From positions 1 through 29,060 of IMG/VR virus record IMGVR_UViG_3300000117_006915: 29,060 nucleotides of DNA. The stretch is one strand, 5' to 3'. The position numbers were made by a program, and so were the translations under genes. The stretch comes from a virus. The notes under the pieces were generated by a model. That model saw only the letters and a program-made list of their open reading frames with translations. It did no database searches and was not told the origin of the DNA. Positions 12,612 to 27,051 of this stretch are shown here, one piece after another. The stretch's first letter is position 1. Each line of letters opens with the position of its first letter.

Positions 12612-13334
12612 TTGAGAAAAAGAAAAACTAAAAAACCTATTGATGCCACAAATAAGCTAAGACCTAACGAAGAAGAATCCAATATTATTGGTTTTAAAAA
12701 TAGGTTGAAGCCTAGAACCATAAATCAAAAAGACTATATTAGAACTGTAGCAGAAAATACTGTTACATTTTGTCAAGGCGTTCCAGGTAGCGGTAAAACG
12801 CATATAGCTATTGGAATGGCTTTAGAATATATTATTGATTTTAAGGTAGAAAAAATTGTTATAACTAGACCTGTAGTCGAAGCGGGAGAAAAACTAGGCT
12901 ACTTACCGGGTACAGCAGAAGAAAAACTACATCCTTATCTACTTCCTTTATTTGATGAAATTAATTATTTCTTACAAATGCAAAGTTATACAAAATTAAA
13001 AGTAGGTAGAAAAATTGAAGTTGTCCCTCTAGGGCTAATGAGAGGCAGAAGTTTTCATAACGCTTTTATTGTAGCTGATGAATGTCAAAATGCATCATAC
13101 GACCAACTAAAGATGCTTTTAACACGTATTGGTATGAATAGTAAAATGGTACTTACTGGGGATGTCGCACAATCTGATTTACAAAAACAGCAACAGGGTG
13201 GTTTTTTACAATTAATAAACCGTCTGCATGATATCAATGGAGTAGGCACCTGCAAGTTAGAAACTAGCGATATTGTTAGAAATCCAATTATAGCAGATAT
13301 AGTTCATAGATTAGATAATGATGAACAACCATAA
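12612..13334 (+). CDS. phoH: PhoH-like ATPase, TTG start
   Basis: 240 residues. Walker A is GVPGSGKT (residues 56-63) and Walker B is AFIVADECQN; VITRPVVEAGEKLGYLPG and MVLTGDVAQSD are PhoH signatures, the latter the sensor/motif III region. PhoH proteins are NTPases, often with predicted RNA helicase activity, and are widespread in marine and freshwater phages with unsettled function. A Lys/Arg-rich N-terminal stretch (RKRKTKKP) may bind nucleic acid. The start is TTG 12612, supported by AGAGGT at 12599-12604; no ATG is available before the conserved region. The 3' end overlaps the HNH gene by 17 bases. Confidence 0.9.
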   Translation: MRKRKTKKPIDATNKLRPNEEESNIIGFKNRLKPRTINQKDYIRTVAENTVTFCQGVPGSGKTHIAIGMALEYIIDFKVEKIVITRPVVEAGEKLGYLPGTAEEKLHPYLLPLFDEINYFLQMQSYTKLKVGRKIEVVPLGLMRGRSFHNAFIVADECQNASYDQLKMLLTRIGMNSKMVLTGDVAQSDLQKQQQGGFLQLINRLHDINGVGTCKLETSDIVRNPIIADIVHRLDNDEQP

Positions 13335-13893
13335 CAGAAAATGCTTAGTACTTAATTGTGATTTTACTCCAATGTGTATTATACATTGGAAAAAAGCTAT
13401 TGTGTGGCAACTTAAGTACTTGCATAATTTCACTGGTAGTATCCAGATATTAGAACAGTATAATGACAATATAATTTGTCCAAATAATAAGCTTATACCT
13501 GTACCTGCTGTTGCTAGAACCACAAGATATTTTAAATCATCTAGAATTAATGTTAAATTATCCCGCAAAAACTTATTTACTAGAGACAACAACAGTTGTC
13601 AATATTGTGGTAAAAAGCTATTAAGAAGCCAACTGACTTATGATCATATCATACCTAAATCTAGATTTAAAGACAATAAGATGTGTACTAGTTGGACTAA
13701 TGTAGTAACCGCTTGCAGAAAATGTAATACTAAAAAAGGTAATAAAACTCCACAAGAAGCAAATATGACACTTCTTTCTCAGCCTATTATCCCAAAATTT
13801 TCTCCAAAATACTTGCCTTGGTACCAAGAAGTGATTACTATAGATACAGAGTCCAAAGACATATGGGAAAAATACATCGGCAGCTTTATATAA
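13318..13893 (+). CDS. HNH endonuclease
   Basis: 191 residues. The HNH core spans about residues 92-150: CQYCGKKL, LTYDHIIPKSRF (D-H with catalytic His), SWTNVVTACRKCNTKKG and NKTPQEANM. Four Cys form the structural zinc site. The N-terminal 70 residues (LNCDFTPMCIIHWKKAIVW) match the extension of a common stand-alone HNH group found in bacteria and phages. It may act as a nicking or homing-type nuclease or in DNA processing; nothing shows it to be inside an intron, since neighbouring genes are intact. Overlaps the end of phoH by 17 bases and has two adjacent ATG codons (13318, 13321). Confidence 0.88.
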   Translation: MMNNHNRKCLVLNCDFTPMCIIHWKKAIVWQLKYLHNFTGSIQILEQYNDNIICPNNKLIPVPAVARTTRYFKSSRINVKLSRKNLFTRDNNSCQYCGKKLLRSQLTYDHIIPKSRFKDNKMCTSWTNVVTACRKCNTKKGNKTPQEANMTLLSQPIIPKFSPKYLPWYQEVITIDTESKDIWEKYIGSFI

Positions 13894-16044: not shown

Positions 16045-17038
16045 TATTAAAAAAAGTTTTGGAGACGATATTATATTATCAGGCAATTCTGTCATAGATA
16101 AAAAAATAATAAACATACCCATTAGTCCTTCTTTAGATATAGCTTTAAATGGAGGCATACCAGAAGGTAGTTTTGTTATCTTGACAGGACAACCTAAATG
16201 TGGTAAAACTACAACTTCTCTCTATGTTGCTGCAATCGCACAAGAGAAACAATATGCTCATGGAGATTTTGCTGACGGTAGAGAAGTGTACTATCTAAAC
16301 ATAGAAGGTAGATTGAAAAAGAGAGACTTGAATGGTATTAAAGGTTTAGACTTAGATAAATTTCACATTATAGGATCTAAAACTGGTAAAATATTACATG
16401 CCGAAGAATATCTACAAATTGGAGAAAGAATTATTAATGAAGTTCCTGGATCAGTTGTTATTATTGATTCGTACTCAGCCCTTTGTACCGAGTCAGAAAT
16501 TACTTCTGATATGAGTAAAATGCAAAGAGCAGATGGTGCTAAATTATTAGCAAAGTTTTGCAGAAAAGTAGCTAATGTTATTCCTGTTAATAAGAATATT
16601 GTGATTGGTATTACTCATTTAATGGGCAATCCCGGTTACGGTAGTAGCGAATGGAAAGAAAAATCTGGCCAAGCCATTGCATATCAAACAGACATTAAGT
16701 TAAAAGCTGCATATTTTAAAGCGTGGAATGTAGGCAAAGAAGAAACTCAAATTGGACAAACTATTGATTGGCAGGTTATATGTTCCGCTTTAGGGCCTCC
16801 TGGAGCCAAAATAACAAGCTATATTAGATATGGTGTCGGAGTTGATAAGGAAATGGAATTATTTAATTTAGCGACGGATTTGGGCCTTATAGACAAAGGT
16901 GGTGCTTGGTACACCTTCTCTACTGTTAAAGACACCCCTAAATTTCAAGGGGGAGAAAAAGCTAGAGATTTCATTGCACAAAATCCTAAAGTCTATGATA
17001 GTCTTTGGAAAGAAGTCAAAACAACCATGGGAATATAA
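16028..17038 (+). CDS. RecA/UvsX-like recombinase
   Basis: 336 residues. SPSLDIALNGGIPEG leads into Walker A GQPKCGKTT (residues 54-62), and SVVIIDSYSAL is the Walker B strand. The region ITHLMGNPGYGSSEWKEKSG with QAIAYQTDIKLKA matches the L1/L2 DNA-binding and motif-4 area of RecA-type recombinases. The family forms ATP-dependent filaments on single-stranded DNA and drives strand exchange. Closest in layout to phage RecA/UvsX proteins; host RecA usually has a longer C-terminal domain. Coupled to the upstream basic protein (17-base overlap) and to the nuclease gene downstream (TAATG). Confidence 0.88.
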   Translation: MSIKTDIKKSFGDDIILSGNSVIDKKIINIPISPSLDIALNGGIPEGSFVILTGQPKCGKTTTSLYVAAIAQEKQYAHGDFADGREVYYLNIEGRLKKRDLNGIKGLDLDKFHIIGSKTGKILHAEEYLQIGERIINEVPGSVVIIDSYSALCTESEITSDMSKMQRADGAKLLAKFCRKVANVIPVNKNIVIGITHLMGNPGYGSSEWKEKSGQAIAYQTDIKLKAAYFKAWNVGKEETQIGQTIDWQVICSALGPPGAKITSYIRYGVGVDKEMELFNLATDLGLIDKGGAWYTFSTVKDTPKFQGGEKARDFIAQNPKVYDSLWKEVKTTMGI

Positions 17039-17442
17039 TGAACATCAGTGATTTAGATGACAATATCCAAAAATGGTCCTTGAAAGGACACATAGCAAAA
17101 GGTAGTAGACTAAATAAGTCTGGTTTACATCTAAAAGCTAGAAAATTAATTAAAGAATGTTTCCCGACTTTACAGATATTAGAAGAGGTTGGAGCTCCAA
17201 TTAGAAAAAATGAAACTTTGTATCTTGACTTTTATCTACCATTGAGTAAAACTTGTATAGAGGTTCATGGTGAACAGCATTACAAATTTGTTCAATTTTA
17301 TCACAATAATACTTTAGGCTTTTTAAAACACAGAAAAAGAGATCAACAGAAAAAAGAATGGTGTGAAAAAAACGATATCAAGTATGTAGAATTACCTTAT
17401 TCAGAATCAGAAGAAGAATGGCGAAATAGGCTAGTAACATGA
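17038..17442 (+). CDS. PD-(D/E)XK-superfamily nuclease, Vsr/homing-endonuclease-like
   Basis: 134 residues from ATG 17038, which overlaps the recA stop as TAATG; a longer in-frame start at 17005 lies inside recA and is less likely. The core YLDFYLPLSKTCIEVHGEQH supplies the Asp ... Glu-x-x-x-Glu/Gln-x-His pattern of compact phage nucleases of this superfamily. It is followed by RKRDQQKKEWCEKNDIKYVEL, the helix and strand typical after the catalytic strand. The N-terminal basic region may contact DNA. Probably cuts branched or nicked intermediates in recombination, inferred from its place next to recA. Exact family uncertain. Confidence 0.65.
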   Translation: MNISDLDDNIQKWSLKGHIAKGSRLNKSGLHLKARKLIKECFPTLQILEEVGAPIRKNETLYLDFYLPLSKTCIEVHGEQHYKFVQFYHNNTLGFLKHRKRDQQKKEWCEKNDIKYVELPYSESEEEWRNRLVT

Positions 17443-21651: not shown

Positions 21652-22695
21652 ATTACATATTTTCGTAGTTCTAGTTATAACACACATAATATGTGTGAAC
21701 AACAATATTTGTTTGACTATGTACTAGGCTATAGATCTCCGTCAAATAAAAAAGCAGACAAAGGAACTATAGTTCACAAGGCTCTAGAAATACTAGCCTT
21801 TGTTAAATATACCGTACAAAATGGAGATTCTACTTTTGAAGATGATATCCTTGGTACTATTAATGTATATAATTATGATTTAGACGATATTATAGAAAGG
21901 GTTTATAATTATTATACTACTGGATTTAGTCACCATGATTGGTCAGACAAAGATTTTAGAGATTGCAGAAAGTGGACATATAAAGCAATAGAATATGCAG
22001 GAGGTATGTTTGATCCAAGAAACAGAAACATCCTTTATCCTGAACAAAGATTTGACATCACTATTAATAAGCCTTGGGCAGAGTATGAGTATGAGCTACC
22101 TGATGGAGAAAAACTAAAAGGTAATTTATCAATTAAAGGAACAATTGACTTAATTACACAACCAGCAGAAAATACTTTAGAAATTATAGATTGGAAAACA
22201 GGCAGAAGATTAAATTGGGCAACTGGTGAAGAAAAAACCCAAGAAAAACTTGAAGTAGATCCTCAGCTGATGATATACTTTTATGCTGTCCAAAAACTGT
22301 ACCCACACATTGAGACATGTATTATTACAATATATTTTATTAATGATGGTGGTCCTTTTAGCATGACTTTTCATAAGTCTGATATGCAAAAAACAGAAGA
22401 TCTATTAAGACAAAAGTTTTATCATATAAAAAATACAAAAAGACCCAAGCTATCTAAAACATGGAAGTGTACTAAGCTATGTCATTATGGTAAAAATTCT
22501 TTTAAAGACAATCCCGATATATTGCCGATACTAGAGTATAGAGATGGACAGGTTTGTAATCCGGGATATAACATGACAATGTGTGAACAGGTCGCTCACG
22601 ATATACAACTAAAAGGTTTAGAAAATGTAGTTGACGAATACACAGTACCAGGGTATAATGTAGGTCATTACAAAGCCCCAGGAAGTATTGAATGA
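21652..22695 (+). CDS. Cas4/AddB-like PD-(D/E)XK exonuclease with Fe-S cysteines, probable AUU/AUA start
   Basis: About 347 residues if read from ATT 21652. The frame is open from 21634. ITYFRSSSYNTHNMCEQQY is the usual N-terminal block of RecB/Cas4-type phage nucleases and would be lost if the first ATG (21691) were used. Nuclease motifs: GTIVHKALE, GTIDLITQ and IIDWKTGRR (D at 22189, K at 22195), and DPQLMIYFYA. A Cys in NMCEQQY plus C-terminal WKCTKLCHYGK and Cys residues near VCNPGY and TMCEQ fit the four-Cys Fe-S cluster of AddB/Cas4 enzymes. Likely trims DNA ends during recombination. Exact start among ATC/ATA/ATA/ATT is uncertain. Confidence 0.8.
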   Translation: MTYFRSSSYNTHNMCEQQYLFDYVLGYRSPSNKKADKGTIVHKALEILAFVKYTVQNGDSTFEDDILGTINVYNYDLDDIIERVYNYYTTGFSHHDWSDKDFRDCRKWTYKAIEYAGGMFDPRNRNILYPEQRFDITINKPWAEYEYELPDGEKLKGNLSIKGTIDLITQPAENTLEIIDWKTGRRLNWATGEEKTQEKLEVDPQLMIYFYAVQKLYPHIETCIITIYFINDGGPFSMTFHKSDMQKTEDLLRQKFYHIKNTKRPKLSKTWKCTKLCHYGKNSFKDNPDILPILEYRDGQVCNPGYNMTMCEQVAHDIQLKGLENVVDEYTVPGYNVGHYKAPGSIE

Positions 22696-24563
22696 AAAAC
22701 TATATACCTTTACATGTTCACAGCCACTATTCTTTATTAGATGGTCTGTCTAAGCCTAAACAAATAGCAAGACGATGTAAAAAAATTGGTGTTAAAAGTT
22801 GTGCTATTACTGATCATGGCTCCATATCCGGTGCTGTACAAATACATCAGACCCTTAAATCAAGTGGGATAAAACCTATTTTAGGTTGTGAATTGTATTT
22901 GTCTTTTGATGATTCTAGTATTAAAACCCCAGAAAATAGTAAACTCACGCACTTCCTAGTCCTTGCTAAAAACTTGGAAGGATGGAAGAATTTAATTAGA
23001 ATAGTTTCTGAATCTAATAATCCAAATAATTACTATCGGAAACCTAGACTGTCAGTAAATAAATTACAAGAGATTGTTAAAGGTAAAAACTTAATTGCTT
23101 TTTGTGGACATATGGGTTCTTATATACCTGATATTATAGCAAATAATCCTGATAATTATCAAAAACCCTGTTTAAACTTTGTAGATCAAATGAAAGACAT
23201 ATTTGGCAAAGACAATTTTTTCCTTGAGACACAGTTGATGGATCAGGAATATATGCCAAAACAGTTAGAGTTAACAGAGACAATAAGAAAAATAGCATCT
23301 ATTACGAAAACTAAAGTCATATGTACTCCAGATGCTCATTATTCAGAGCAAGAAGATGCAACAGACCAAAGAATACTATTATGCAATAATATAAAAACAA
23401 CCTTGACAGATATTAACAAAAAAATGCTAGACGGACAAGATGTCCCCTTTAGTTGTTTTTTTAAGTCTGATAAATATTACATTTTATCTCCCGAAGAAAT
23501 GGCAGAACTACACACAGAAGAAGAAATAGAAAATACACAATTAATAGATAGTATGTGTGAAGAATATGATATATTACACAAACCTGTTCTTCCTCCTTTT
23601 AAATGTCCAAATGGACAAAATCCAGATGAATATTTAAGACAGTTATGCCGTAACGGTTGGAGAGATAAAATAGCTAATGTAGTGCCTAAAGATCAACACT
23701 CTAGTTATACGGAAAGAATCAAACAGGAACTGTCGGTTTTACAAGGGGCTGACCTATCTAGTTATTTTTTAATTGTTGCCGATATAGTGGATCGTGTGAG
23801 ATCTCAAAGCTGGTTGCCAGGTCCTGGTAGAGGTTCAGCAGCTGGTTGCTTGGTTTCATACTTAATTGGTATTACTTCAATCGATCCAATGAAATATGGT
23901 CTTATCTTTGAAAGGTTCTATAATTCCGGTAGAAACACAGAAGGTAGAGTTTCTATGCCAGATATTGATGTGGATGTTCCGATTAACAAAAGAGAAGACA
24001 TTATATCATATATCAGAGAAAAATATGGAGAAAACAAAGTTTCTCAAATGATTACATTTAATACAATGAAAGGAAGAGGAGCGTTAAAAGAAGTATTAAG
24101 AGTTTACGGAAATATAAGTTTTGACGAAATGAATCAGATTACAAAGTGTATACCCGATGAAGCTAAAATTGCTGATGAATTACAAGAAATGAAAGATGAC
24201 TATGGAGAAGCTTCTATAATTAGATGGGCATTAGAAAACAATAATGATAAGCTTAAAGAATGGTGCTCTGTTAGTAAAGACGGAAATAAATTAAAAGGCC
24301 CTCTTGCAAAAAGGTTTGAGCAGGCTATTAGATTAGAGGGCACAAAATCTAATCAATCAAAACATGCTGCCGGTGTAGTTATTAGTAGTCACAACTTAGA
24401 TACAATGTGTCCGATGATTTACGATACAAAAAACAAAACCACAATTGCTGGCATGGAAATGCAAGATCTAGAATCTTTGGGTATTATAAAATTTGATATT
24501 CTTGGTGTGGCTATGTTAGATAAAGTTATGTCAATATCAGATACACTATCGCATGGAGAATAA
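22692..24563 (+). CDS. dnaE: DNA polymerase III alpha subunit, N-terminal part (PHP and palm)
   Basis: 623 residues. The PHP domain is first, with metal ligands intact: His8/His10 in LHVHSHYSLLDG, Asp41/His42 in ITDHG, Glu67 in LGCELYL, then FCGHMGSY and TPDAHYS. The polymerase part carries GPGRGSAAG and all three catalytic Asp: Asp424/Asp426 in MPDIDVDVP and Asp602 in IKFDILG. It stops 21 residues after Asp602, before the fingers. The rest of the enzyme is a separate gene at 25426-27051. N plus C parts total 1164 residues, the length of a complete DnaE. Intact PHP residues suggest an intrinsic exonuclease. No intein motif is seen at the end. Confidence 0.9.
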   Translation: MKNYIPLHVHSHYSLLDGLSKPKQIARRCKKIGVKSCAITDHGSISGAVQIHQTLKSSGIKPILGCELYLSFDDSSIKTPENSKLTHFLVLAKNLEGWKNLIRIVSESNNPNNYYRKPRLSVNKLQEIVKGKNLIAFCGHMGSYIPDIIANNPDNYQKPCLNFVDQMKDIFGKDNFFLETQLMDQEYMPKQLELTETIRKIASITKTKVICTPDAHYSEQEDATDQRILLCNNIKTTLTDINKKMLDGQDVPFSCFFKSDKYYILSPEEMAELHTEEEIENTQLIDSMCEEYDILHKPVLPPFKCPNGQNPDEYLRQLCRNGWRDKIANVVPKDQHSSYTERIKQELSVLQGADLSSYFLIVADIVDRVRSQSWLPGPGRGSAAGCLVSYLIGITSIDPMKYGLIFERFYNSGRNTEGRVSMPDIDVDVPINKREDIISYIREKYGENKVSQMITFNTMKGRGALKEVLRVYGNISFDEMNQITKCIPDEAKIADELQEMKDDYGEASIIRWALENNNDKLKEWCSVSKDGNKLKGPLAKRFEQAIRLEGTKSNQSKHAAGVVISSHNLDTMCPMIYDTKNKTTIAGMEMQDLESLGIIKFDILGVAMLDKVMSISDTLSHGE

Positions 24564-24565
24564 TA

Positions 24566-24745
24566 ATGCAAAAAACATTTCAAGAAATTGTAGTTGGTCA
24601 AGCTTTCAAGTTCAATAACCAACAATATGTAAAAATGAATACTGTTAAAGTCAGTTGTTGTAAAAGTGCTAATTGTTATGTTGCTGATAATCATAGAGTG
24701 CAACATTTTATTCGTCCAGATCAGAAAGTGGAGGTGTCAGATTAA
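24566..24745 (+). CDS. 59-residue Cys-containing small protein between the dnaE halves
   Basis: A short frame starts three bases after the dnaE N-part stop, with TGGAG at 24554-24558, and ends at TAA 24743-24745. The sequence has a beta-rich start (FQEIVVGQAFKFNNQQYVKM), then VKVSCCKSANCYVADN and a C-terminal VQHFIRPDQKVEV. The pattern of a small FxxLxVGxxFxFNxxxYxK domain followed by a Cys pair occurs in phage small proteins of unknown function. The GGAGGTG site of the next gene sits in its last codons. It may be a small Zn or structural accessory of the split replicase. Confidence 0.6.
   Translation: MQKTFQEIVVGQAFKFNNQQYVKMNTVKVSCCKSANCYVADNHRVQHFIRPDQKVEVSD
24730..24736 (+). promoter_or_regulatory. 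Strong ribosome binding site before an AUU start
   Basis: GGAGGTG lies six bases (counted from GGAGG) ahead of ATT 24741, the codon directly before the conserved first strand of the exonuclease. No ATG, GTG or TTG is suitably spaced in that frame. Confidence 0.5.
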
Positions 24746-25433
24746 TAGTCAAAAAATTTGTGTTTTTGATTTAGAAACAGACGGTTGCAATCCAGAAGTT
24801 TGTAGTCCGGTTCAGATTGCAGCCGTGATCGTTGATCCAATCAAATTGGAAGTGGTGCCAGATTCAGAATTTAATATTTGTTTAAAGCCTGAAGCACTAC
24901 AAGACAATCCAAAATATGCCTATGATGATTCTGATGTTTTGGATTTTCATGCCAAAGTCAAAGGCACAACTAAAGCAGAAGTCCTTAAGTCTTGGAAAAA
25001 GTACCAAAAACAAGAACAAGCATGGAAGATGTTTGTAAGCTATTTGCAGATGTACCACACAAGATCTGTTAAAAAGAATTGCTTTAGTGCTCCTATTGCT
25101 GCTGGTTACAACATTAATCGGTTTGATTTACCAATTATTAATAGGTTGAGTCAAAAATATAAAAATGTTAACAAGGAAAATAAGACTGATATATTTTATC
25201 CTAGAGATGTTTTAGATATTATGAATGTTATTTTTTATTGGTTTGAGAACAATAATGAATTAAAAAACTATACTCTTGATAATCTTAGAGATTATATGGG
25301 ACTATCCAAGGAAAATGCTCATGATGCTCTCAAGGACGTACAAGACACCGCAGAGATACTGATTAGGTTTATGAAATTATTTAGAAGTTTGTCACCAAAG
25401 ATTAAGTTTAGAAACGCCTTTAATAATGTCTGA
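24741..25433 (+). CDS. dnaQ: DnaQ-type 3'-5' proofreading exonuclease (DEDDh), probable AUU start
   Basis: About 230 residues read from ATT 24741. Motifs of DEDDh exonucleases are complete: ExoI ICVFDLETDG near residue 5, ExoII AGYNINRFDLPII, and ExoIII HDALKDVQDTAEIL. The family removes misinserted nucleotides as the epsilon partner of DnaE. The nearest upstream ATG (24666) would add 25 residues that overlap the small Cys gene in another frame and have no ribosome binding site; GGAGGTG before ATT 24741 favours a non-AUG start that overlaps the preceding TAA. It sits between the halves of the polymerase, and its stop overlaps the start of the C-part (ATGTCTGA). Confidence 0.85.
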   Translation: MNSQKICVFDLETDGCNPEVCSPVQIAAVIVDPIKLEVVPDSEFNICLKPEALQDNPKYAYDDSDVLDFHAKVKGTTKAEVLKSWKKYQKQEQAWKMFVSYLQMYHTRSVKKNCFSAPIAAGYNINRFDLPIINRLSQKYKNVNKENKTDIFYPRDVLDIMNVIFYWFENNNELKNYTLDNLRDYMGLSKENAHDALKDVQDTAEILIRFMKLFRSLSPKIKFRNAFNNV

Positions 25434-27051
25434 GTATTATACTTTTGATTGCGGCTGTAAATTTGAAATAACAGGAAGCAATTTAGAATTTCCCAGGATA
25501 CAATTTGAACCCAAGTTAGAAAAAATTAACTTAGAATGTTCTAAGACTTGGGATTTAATTTCTTCTGGTAATACAAAAGGTTGCTTTCAGTTGGAGTCTA
25601 GGCTTGGCCAAAGTATGGCCAAAAGACTCAAACCAAGAAATATTGAGCAGCTATCTGCGCTAATTAGTATTCTAAGACCTGGATGTTTAGAGGCTATCAG
25701 AGATGGTAAAACAGTATCTAATCATTATATAGACAAAAAGAATGGCCAAGAATCTGTAGATTACTATCATCCTATTCTTAAAAGTGTTTTGGAAAAGACA
25801 TATGGAGAAATGATCTATCAAGAACAAGCTATGGAAATATCTAGAGTCGTATCTGGATTTAATCTGCAAGAAGCAGATGTTCTCAGAAAAGCTATTGGTA
25901 AAAAGAAAGCCGACTTAATGGCTGAGGTTAAAACATCTTTTCTTGAAGGTGCTAAAAAGATCAATGAAGTAGATGTAGAAACAGCCGAAGAAATATTTGG
26001 TTGGATTGAAAAAAGCCAAAGATATAGCTTTAATAAGTCTCATGCTGTAAGTTATGCAATGAATGCTTACTTATCAGCTTTTACAAAAGCGCATTTCCCC
26101 AGAGTGTTTTTTGCTTCATATCTAAAGTTTGCAAAAGACAAAATTGATCCTCAACAAGAAATCAAAGAACTTGTGAGGAACGCAAACGAAATGGATATCA
26201 ATATACAAACTCCAGACATTAGAAACCTTAATGAGCTATTTGCAATAAAAGATCGAAAGATATTTTTCGGGCTTACAGACATTAAGGGTTTGGGCAAATC
26301 AGTATACAAAAAGATATTAGAAATTTTAGAAAAAGATAAGATAGACATTAAGTCTCTTAGTTGGTATGATATGCTTAACAAAGTGCTATGCAAAATTAAT
26401 ACCACTGCAACTAAAGCTATCATATCTTGCGGTGCATTAGATTATTTTAAAATGTCTAGAACAAAAATGCTTTTTGAATATGAAATTTTTAATACTTTGA
26501 CAAAAAAAGAAATGGAAAAATGTCAAGAAGCAATATCTAATAAAGACAATAATCTTAAACAGATATTAACAGAATTGTTGACAAAAAGAGTCAATGTTAA
26601 AAGAAAAGAAATAATAAATAATCTTATTACTTCTATAAACAAACCCCCGTATTCTTTAACGGATAAAATAGAATGGTTGTCTGATTCAGAAAACTCTTTA
26701 TTGGGAACCTCTATTACATGCTCTAAACTGGACTCTTATAAAATAGAAATGACAAATACTAATTGTAAAGACTTTAAGAGAACATATAAGACTGATGATA
26801 TTATATTAGCAGCAGAAGTTGTGGGTGTTAATGTAACTAAAACTAAAAATGGTAAAAATCCTGGTGCTGAAATGGCGTTTATCACTGGTGAAGACCAATA
26901 TGGTTTACTAGACTCTATTATTCTCTTTCCAGAAACATGGACATCATATAGGACTCATGTGTTTGAAGGAAATGTATTAATCTTTACTGGCAAAAAGTCA
27001 AAAAACAAGGATAGTCTAATAGTAGAGAAATGTTTTATACCTAAGCCTTGA
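25426..27051 (+). CDS. dnaE: DNA polymerase III alpha subunit, C-terminal part (fingers, tandem helix and OB)
   Basis: 541 residues. After about 45 residues of unusual N-terminus containing FDCGCKFEI and NLECSKTW (possible metal-binding Cys), the standard DnaE order resumes: CFQLESRLGQSMAKRLKP, a fingers block with YGEMIYQEQAMEISRVVSGF, RKAIGKKK, SFNKSHAVSYAMNAYLSAF, FFGLTDIKGLGKSVYKKI, ENSLLGTSITCSKLDSY, and a C-terminal OB-like region from about residue 460. No obvious beta-clamp pentapeptide and no tau-binding tail are seen. It lacks catalytic Asp residues, so it must pair with the N-part. No intein C-terminal motif is present. Confidence 0.88.
   Translation: MSEYYTFDCGCKFEITGSNLEFPRIQFEPKLEKINLECSKTWDLISSGNTKGCFQLESRLGQSMAKRLKPRNIEQLSALISILRPGCLEAIRDGKTVSNHYIDKKNGQESVDYYHPILKSVLEKTYGEMIYQEQAMEISRVVSGFNLQEADVLRKAIGKKKADLMAEVKTSFLEGAKKINEVDVETAEEIFGWIEKSQRYSFNKSHAVSYAMNAYLSAFTKAHFPRVFFASYLKFAKDKIDPQQEIKELVRNANEMDINIQTPDIRNLNELFAIKDRKIFFGLTDIKGLGKSVYKKILEILEKDKIDIKSLSWYDMLNKVLCKINTTATKAIISCGALDYFKMSRTKMLFEYEIFNTLTKKEMEKCQEAISNKDNNLKQILTELLTKRVNVKRKEIINNLITSINKPPYSLTDKIEWLSDSENSLLGTSITCSKLDSYKIEMTNTNCKDFKRTYKTDDIILAAEVVGVNVTKTKNGKNPGAEMAFITGEDQYGLLDSIILFPETWTSYRTHVFEGNVLIFTGKKSKNKDSLIVEKCFIPKP

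Follow-up and report, generated by a model that had tools for sequence, protein, structure and literature searches.

A phage DnaE polymerase encoded in two parts around an exonuclease gene, with a candidate translational bypass cassette in its relatives

Several replicative DNA polymerases are known to be encoded in pieces. In cyanobacteria, DnaE is encoded as two pieces that are joined by a split intein (PMC3919608). Group 2.2 jumbo phages carry a minimal DNA polymerase III (Pol III) alpha divided into two proteins without an intein, which are thought to reconstitute the enzyme; it has no PHP, its genes are distant from one another and it occurs beside a PolB (PMC7824862). The PolB of phage MIJ3 is another replicative polymerase in pieces, with an intein and endonuclease at the break (PMC6892783), and OM43 phages have split polymerase genes, of unspecified family, with a small uncharacterised open reading frame (ORF) at the break (PMC10580990). 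Here we describe a further arrangement in the IMG/VR virus record IMGVR_UViG_3300000117_006915, the whole of which, 29,060 bases without end repeats, we call the window. Its dnaE gene is encoded as two ORFs, alpha-N and alpha-C, between which lie genes for a small protein, S, and an exonuclease, X.

Like the cyanobacterial enzyme, this DnaE is encoded as two pieces, but no split intein is detected at its break. As in the jumbo phages there are two proteins and no intein; unlike theirs, the polymerase is full length, with PHP, tandem helix-hairpin-helix (HhH) and OB regions, its genes are adjacent with X between them, and a PolB was found in 0 of 18 long relatives. Fractured genes with split inteins were reportedly described by Dassa et al. 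in 2009. That layout occurs inside alpha-N of three relatives (L035, L036 and L066), and neither at the alpha-N/alpha-C break nor in the window. Literature listings, which covered few subscription journals, returned no report of a full-length phage DnaE that is broken without an intein and has an exonuclease encoded between its halves, and we regard the arrangement as a new variation on the known split polymerases. Our reading, to which we give a probability of roughly 0.8, is that the phage replicase is a C-family DnaE made as two polypeptides that dock non-covalently to form one active site.

The two halves and the break between them

A first-pass annotation, made from the sequence of the window, had proposed a dnaE in two ORFs with S and X between them, and the coordinates, the gene order and the lengths (623 + 541 = 1164 residues) all hold (Table 1). 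It was also right about the contents of each half. Alpha-N matches PHP (PF02811, E 4.7e-36) and PF07733 (E 3.4e-73), and the three catalytic Asp residues assigned to it (424, 426 and 602) sit in the expected motifs when compared with Thermus and M. tuberculosis Pol III alpha. The fingers and HhH assigned to alpha-C are found by Pfam (PF17657, E 2.9e-45, and HHH_6, E 7.3e-12), while the OB region, which has no Pfam match, is visible in an alignment to E. coli 5fku and in a structure model. This model, built with 50 sequences, has a mean predicted local distance difference test score (pLDDT) of 85.2, and its best Foldseek match is Pol III alpha (E 2.1e-21, 536 alignment columns). The alignment to 5fku stops at E. 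coli residue 1055, 16 residues short of the end of alpha-C, which suggests that the tau-binding C-terminal domain is absent.

The characters of a DnaE-type C-family polymerase, namely PHP, a PF07733 palm with three Asp residues, fingers and tandem HhH, are thus all found across the two halves. Palm and fingers do not share a chain, and membership of DnaE rests on the homology of both halves.

The break falls where it had been annotated, between the palm KFD strand and the fingers: alpha-N is aligned up to Taq residue 625, and alpha-C restarts at Taq 645 (E. coli 587). The segment of about 19 residues in Taq is replaced by 14 residues of alpha-N and 30 of alpha-C. Neither half in the window has an intein family match, in agreement with the first reading. 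The cyanobacterial DnaE split site is (C)FN, further downstream. The RYSFNK stretch of alpha-C, which we take to be its equivalent, is internal and intact, and the two break sites do differ as was claimed.

Two scans of viral contigs returned 234 stretches with alpha-C relatives (80 loci kept) and 42 with alpha-N relatives (41 loci). The 119 loci compared include the window and six duplicate contigs; without these there are 99 contigs with separate halves. The order alpha-N, S, X, alpha-C is found in 92 of the 119 loci, and in 11 more the order is the same with alpha-N broken again. Three have no detectable S, 11 hold part of the set only and two are unsplit, at just 29-30% identity. The 99 IMG/VR contigs besides the window all have X between the split halves, the most distant being about 43% identical in alpha-C, and both halves stay open across 43-98% identity. 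The 98 complete alpha-C proteins, together with that of the window, form 51 clusters at 90% identity and 20 at 70%; representatives of these and of S were used below, with one left out of alignment A2 (L057, of 51) and one of A3 (L067, of 49).

In a FastTree analysis of 83 DnaE rows (56 split, 9 unsplit phage and 18 bacterial), built with unbroken alpha-N only, the split rows fall on one side of one branch with a support of 100. The simplest reading of this tree is that the split arose once and has been retained since. Among 50,697 annotated phage records, the best-ranked matches to alpha-N and alpha-C reach at most 34% identity. Two Bacillus phages have a dnaE-like frame that is broken elsewhere, Jayan (L120, 410 + 634 residues) and vB_BpsS-140 (L122, 363 + 852 residues), and these breaks may include sequencing error. 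Two relatives on short contigs (L124 and L125) were binned with Flavobacteriales and Lokiarchaeota metagenome-assembled genomes (MAGs), which are weak hints of a host.

The residues needed for catalysis are kept. D424, D426 and D602 are invariant in all 47 representatives with an unbroken alpha-N. Of the PHP residues in this set, D17, H42, H87, H140, D214 and H216 are each present in 46 and E67 in 47. H8 and H10 are readable in 36; the other 11 equal the number of representatives whose gene is interrupted at that point by the cassette described below.

Table 1. Parts of the split dnaE locus in the window
Feature	Position	Strand	Size and basis
alpha-N (DnaE N-terminal half: PHP, palm with D424/D426/D602, thumb)	22692..24563	+	623 residues; Pfam, PDB alignment, invariance
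S (predicted SH3-like barrel; invariant F14, C31, C32, N36)	24566..24745	+	59 residues; representatives, model, weak fold matches
X (DEDDh 3'-5' exonuclease, likely proofreader)	24741..25433	+	PF00929, DEDDh residues, probable ATT start after GGAGG
alpha-C (DnaE C-terminal half: fingers, HhH, OB)	25426..27051	+	541 residues; Pfam, PDB alignment, model and fold search
alpha-C N-terminal extension with CGC; third Cys, C38, just beyond	25426..25515	+	Cys conservation; no counterpart in PDB alignments

On the plus strand of the window the order is a DnaB-like helicase, a Toprim primase, a dNMP kinase, a PD-(D/E)XK nuclease, alpha-N, S, X, alpha-C and SSB. Elsewhere in the window, two HNH or homing endonuclease-like ORFs (13318-13893 and 17005-17442) lie beside PhoH and UvsX genes. 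Rfam, searched at gathering scores for known introns, had no match in the window or in any of five loci examined.

The exonuclease, the Cys extension and the small protein

X matches PF00929 (E 2.5e-11). Its DEDDh residues are conserved in the 51 representatives, with D10 in 49, E12 in 50 and D129, H194 and D199 in 51, the remainder being gaps. The claim that a complete PHP metal set and a DEDDh exonuclease occur together is well founded, as both are conserved in nearly all representatives. In every one of the 106 loci that have both halves apart (92 + 11 + 3, with the window and duplicates counted), X is located between them. Using the starts given by the ORF finder, the S and X genes overlap or touch in 84 of the 92 loci with the complete order, and the same holds for X and alpha-C in 62. 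The X printed by the ORF finder, which starts from a GTG at 24666, is probably too long, and the ATT at 24741 is the probable start. This ATT stands six bases behind a GGAGG at 24730; L002 and L003 share the pair and L004 has an ATT at the same place. The nearest match to X is in the Bacteroides phage DAC19, which we rejected as a parallel: the neighbouring genes there encode a terminase and a DNA ligase, with no DnaE.

The N-terminal extension of alpha-C, first proposed for its Cys residues, is real, with C9 and C11 in 50 of 51 representatives and C38 in all 51. No conserved Asn-Cys/Ser/Thr junction is found in it. L107 lacks the CGC part.

S evolves fast, yet F14, C31, C32 and N36 are present in all 49 representatives. 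It is modelled as an SH3-like barrel (pLDDT 93.9). By sequence, 22 of 48 members match phrog_2183, a family without an assigned function, and a search of annotated phage records with the S of L041 gave no relatives at E 1. By fold, there is a weak match to EF-P/eIF5A domain I (Foldseek E 0.045, none under 0.001; VIA Z 5.0, root-mean-square deviation 2.4, 53 aligned), and the best match among small uncharacterised phage proteins has E 5e-4. These weak matches suggest an SH3-like barrel and imply no function.

The view of S as a needed part of the complex is weakened, for S is undetected in the basal L108, L110 and L112, where the gap from alpha-N to X is 36 nucleotides in L112; it is also undetected in the MAG contig L125. 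We reject, as a general rule, S as a bridge required for the split. The same applies to S as the partner of the Cys extension, because the extension, CGC included, is kept in L110 and L112 where no S is detected, while S is kept in L107 without CGC. Since it persists in these two S-less loci, the extension more probably belongs to the split itself than provides S with a partner site.

Weighing the proposed two-piece replicase

We propose that alpha-N, with PHP, palm and thumb, and alpha-C, with fingers, HhH and OB, would dock across the palm-fingers segment without a covalent link. Assembly could be aided by the closely packed or overlapping genes, and the Cys extension may take part in docking. 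X probably proofreads for the two-piece polymerase, acting as an epsilon-like partner of the half that bears PHP, and S would be an accessory SH3-like subunit that is dispensable for the split. The joint, non-covalent action of the two chains is inferred from the kept catalytic residues, the lack of an intein at the break and the failure to find another polymerase. The 18 long relatives (52-223 kb) have one dnaE-N locus each, as two adjacent pieces in six of them. A second dnaE elsewhere, which had been named beforehand as a finding that would count against the split, was not found in any of them, and PolA and PolB were sought in the same contigs and neither was found.

Some observations weigh against this proposal. 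The window and the 18 long relatives have no end repeats and may be fragments, and 12 long relatives gave no family match for a beta-type bacterial sliding clamp. By profile, X resembles ExoI and ExoX-like or PolC-type exonucleases more closely than a specific epsilon family. There are long branches among the unsplit phage rows of the DnaE tree, and the structure models are of single chains, in which an interface is not visible.

There is next to no chance that the break is a sequencing or assembly artefact or a decaying pseudogene, and we found nothing in favour of this. That 99 other contigs, recovered from many metagenomes, share the break excludes the assembly error that the first-pass annotation had listed as a possible refutation, and the catalytic residues are invariant in halves that remain open at 43-98% identity. 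It is also extremely improbable that each half works on its own, alpha-N being a PHP nuclease and alpha-C a DNA-binding protein, while a host polymerase copies the phage DNA. Nothing beyond the split itself speaks for this, whereas the palm Asp residues, the fingers and HhH are all conserved and the operon is flanked by DnaB, primase and SSB genes. A covalent rejoining of the halves through some element that escaped recognition, for instance a highly divergent split intein, is very unlikely. Trans-splicing does exist in this gene, as L035 and L066 carry a split intein elsewhere in alpha-N, and the conserved Cys residues of the extension would be in keeping with it. Against it, the alpha-N/alpha-C break has no intein family match, alpha-N continues for only 14 residues past its aligned part, which is too short for an intein-N, and the extension lacks the conserved junction that was looked for.

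The alternative that most deserves attention concerns X, which might be an unrelated free exonuclease of the operon, leaving PHP to proofread alone. Nearly all representatives retain the PHP metal residues, the nearest profiles to X are ExoI-like, and bacteria with DnaE1 only usually have one active proofreader (PMC12926913). The constant position of X between the separated halves argues the other way, and we consider this alternative doubtful, although it is a good deal more credible than the three above.

Further breaks and a two-hairpin cassette in relatives

The dnaE gene is a hotspot for breaks, and many relatives have more of them. In three loci (L035:4044-7123, L036:3327-6406 and L066:4050-7126) alpha-N is split between PGRG and SAAG (residue 381), with an intein-N-like tail, an intein-C-like head and a free endonuclease-like ORF between the pieces (weak Pfam matches below cut-off); TIGR01445 is above its cut-off in L035 and L066. 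In L019 (4140-7133) and L028-L034 (L028:4126-7119) alpha-N is broken in two frames at the catalytic ISMPDIDVD. In the two examined, L019 and L028, the middle ORF passes LAGLIDADG_3 and the next piece gains an extension of about 90 residues; no intein match is found in L028. Judged by its reading frames, the LAGLIDADG-broken dnaE comprises three pieces if alpha-C is counted. An additional ORF of 227-231 residues, without a Pfam match, lies between alpha-N and S in L036 and L040, and in L248 alpha-C itself is in two frames, with parts of 317 and 205 residues.

A different kind of interruption, absent from the window, was noticed as an odd start of alpha-N in 21 loci. A short message, M...Y-x-P-L-H-V-H-S, is followed directly after the Ser codon by TAA or TAG, inside a PHP motif. 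After the stop come 6-9 nucleotides, one NCN codon and then H/M-Y/F-S-L-L-D-G in the frame of alpha-N. A pattern scan found this in 61 contigs, which together with the loci already known gave 42 distinct cassettes. Forty of these were parsed, with L234 (in another gene, probably by chance) and L207 (HDSLLDG, of the same layout but missed by the pattern) dropped. Carriers include L010, L012, L044, L054, L074, most of L204-L264 and others.

Upstream of the gap, all 40 cassettes agree in Y, P, L, H, V, H and S. The search pattern itself sets the V, both H, the S and the stop in whole or in part, so that information comes from the columns Y (2 codons), P (2) and L (5). Downstream of the gap, S, L, L, D and G occur in all 40, preceded by H or M and by Y or F. 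The offset from the Ser codon to the next His or Met codon is 9, 10, 11 and 12 nucleotides in 9, 15, 15 and 1 cassettes, respectively, and with these mixed offsets the reading frame is not kept.

The stop lies between two hairpins. Of these, HP1 (ATGGACGTG/CACGTCCAT) is largely dictated by the pattern and has one compensated pair. HP2 occurs in variants such as AAGTGAAT/ATTCACTT, TAGAGAAT/ATTCTCTA, AGCGAAT/ATTCGCT and TAGCGA/TCGCTA. In an analysis of covariation over 35 distinct sub-sequences, 87.5% of cells are paired against 36-54% when slid, and both sides have changed in 37 cells, compared with 15 in shuffles; neither the number of pairs nor that of pair types is above shuffles (163 and 286 of 500). 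The longest HP2 helix is 7.1 for the cassette's own sequence, 5.9 when swapped and 5.1 when shuffled. Five carriers fold better than their shuffles (z -3.1 to -5.1), whereas two non-carriers do not.

On the DnaE tree the distribution of carriers requires at least 12 changes among the 56 split rows. Codon identity at positions with the same residue is 0.71 in the cassette, part of which is imposed by the pattern, compared with 0.48 in the next 90 codons and 0.42 at the same place in non-carriers. This scatter and codon identity fit either a spread from lineage to lineage or a constraint on the RNA.

Translational bypass is known from T4 gene 60 and yeast mitochondria, and is likely in a Streptomyces phage terminase (PMC5009743). 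The cassette shares with T4 gene 60 a sense codon followed by a stop, RNA hairpins around it and resumption downstream in any frame (PMC5009743), where the stop after the take-off codon in 40 of 40 is itself part of the search pattern. It differs in having a gap of 6-9 nucleotides to the landing codon instead of 50, and in lying near the gene start, where there is little nascent peptide, and bypass by it is putative. The ribosome would leave at the Ser codon before the stop, land on the NCN codon and resume 9-12 nucleotides on, in any frame. Such a hop from Ser to NCN would yield PLHVHS-HYSLLDG and so restore the canonical, uninterrupted protein exactly. We consider it fairly probable, though well short of certain, that the cassette is a programmed bypass element of this kind. 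A further difference from T4 gene 60, and a point against bypass, is that only 11 of 40 cassettes have the same codon at take-off and landing; both encode Ser in 26, and the rest go from Ser to Thr or Ala. Our search of the same kind of listings found no report of a bypass element in dnaE.

Other routes around the stop are each made less likely by the coding pattern that precedes the gap. The mixed offsets exclude a single type of readthrough or frameshift for all cassettes. Re-initiation after the stop could use a start codon that follows within 40 codons in the frame of alpha-N; 38 of the 40 cassettes have one (TTG in 20, ATG in 10 and GTG in 8), and L044 and L254 have none. A direct start in the alpha-N frame inside HP1 could use an ATG that is present there in 12 of 40, all with offset 10 and L044 among them, and L225 has a TTG 4 nucleotides upstream of its mini-ORF. 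L254 alone has no nearby ATG, GTG or TTG, and would allow neither of these routes. It is conceivable that recoding varies with the offset class, with readthrough at 9 and 12, a +1 shift at 10 and a -1 shift at 11; each of these would add residues inside the PHP motif, and the +1 shift is barred in L027 by a second stop.

We would give roughly even odds to a broader view, in which dnaE has been broken repeatedly while its product is kept whole, by non-covalent assembly, by trans-splicing, across an intein-less homing-endonuclease break and, on scattered branches (about 60 contigs), by a spreading bypass cassette.

Replicative polymerases are normally one chain, and here the sole replicase detected in a clade of uncultured phages would be permanently two chains, and three in some members. 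The clade may serve as a natural experiment on what the polymerase fold requires in order to remain intact and on the survival of an essential gene that is broken again and again, and it provides a natural intein-free split point in DnaE. If our interpretation of the cassette is true, it would establish programmed translational bypass elements of a new family, located in a replicative polymerase, and add about 40 distinct natural sequences to a phenomenon with few known cases (PMC5009743).

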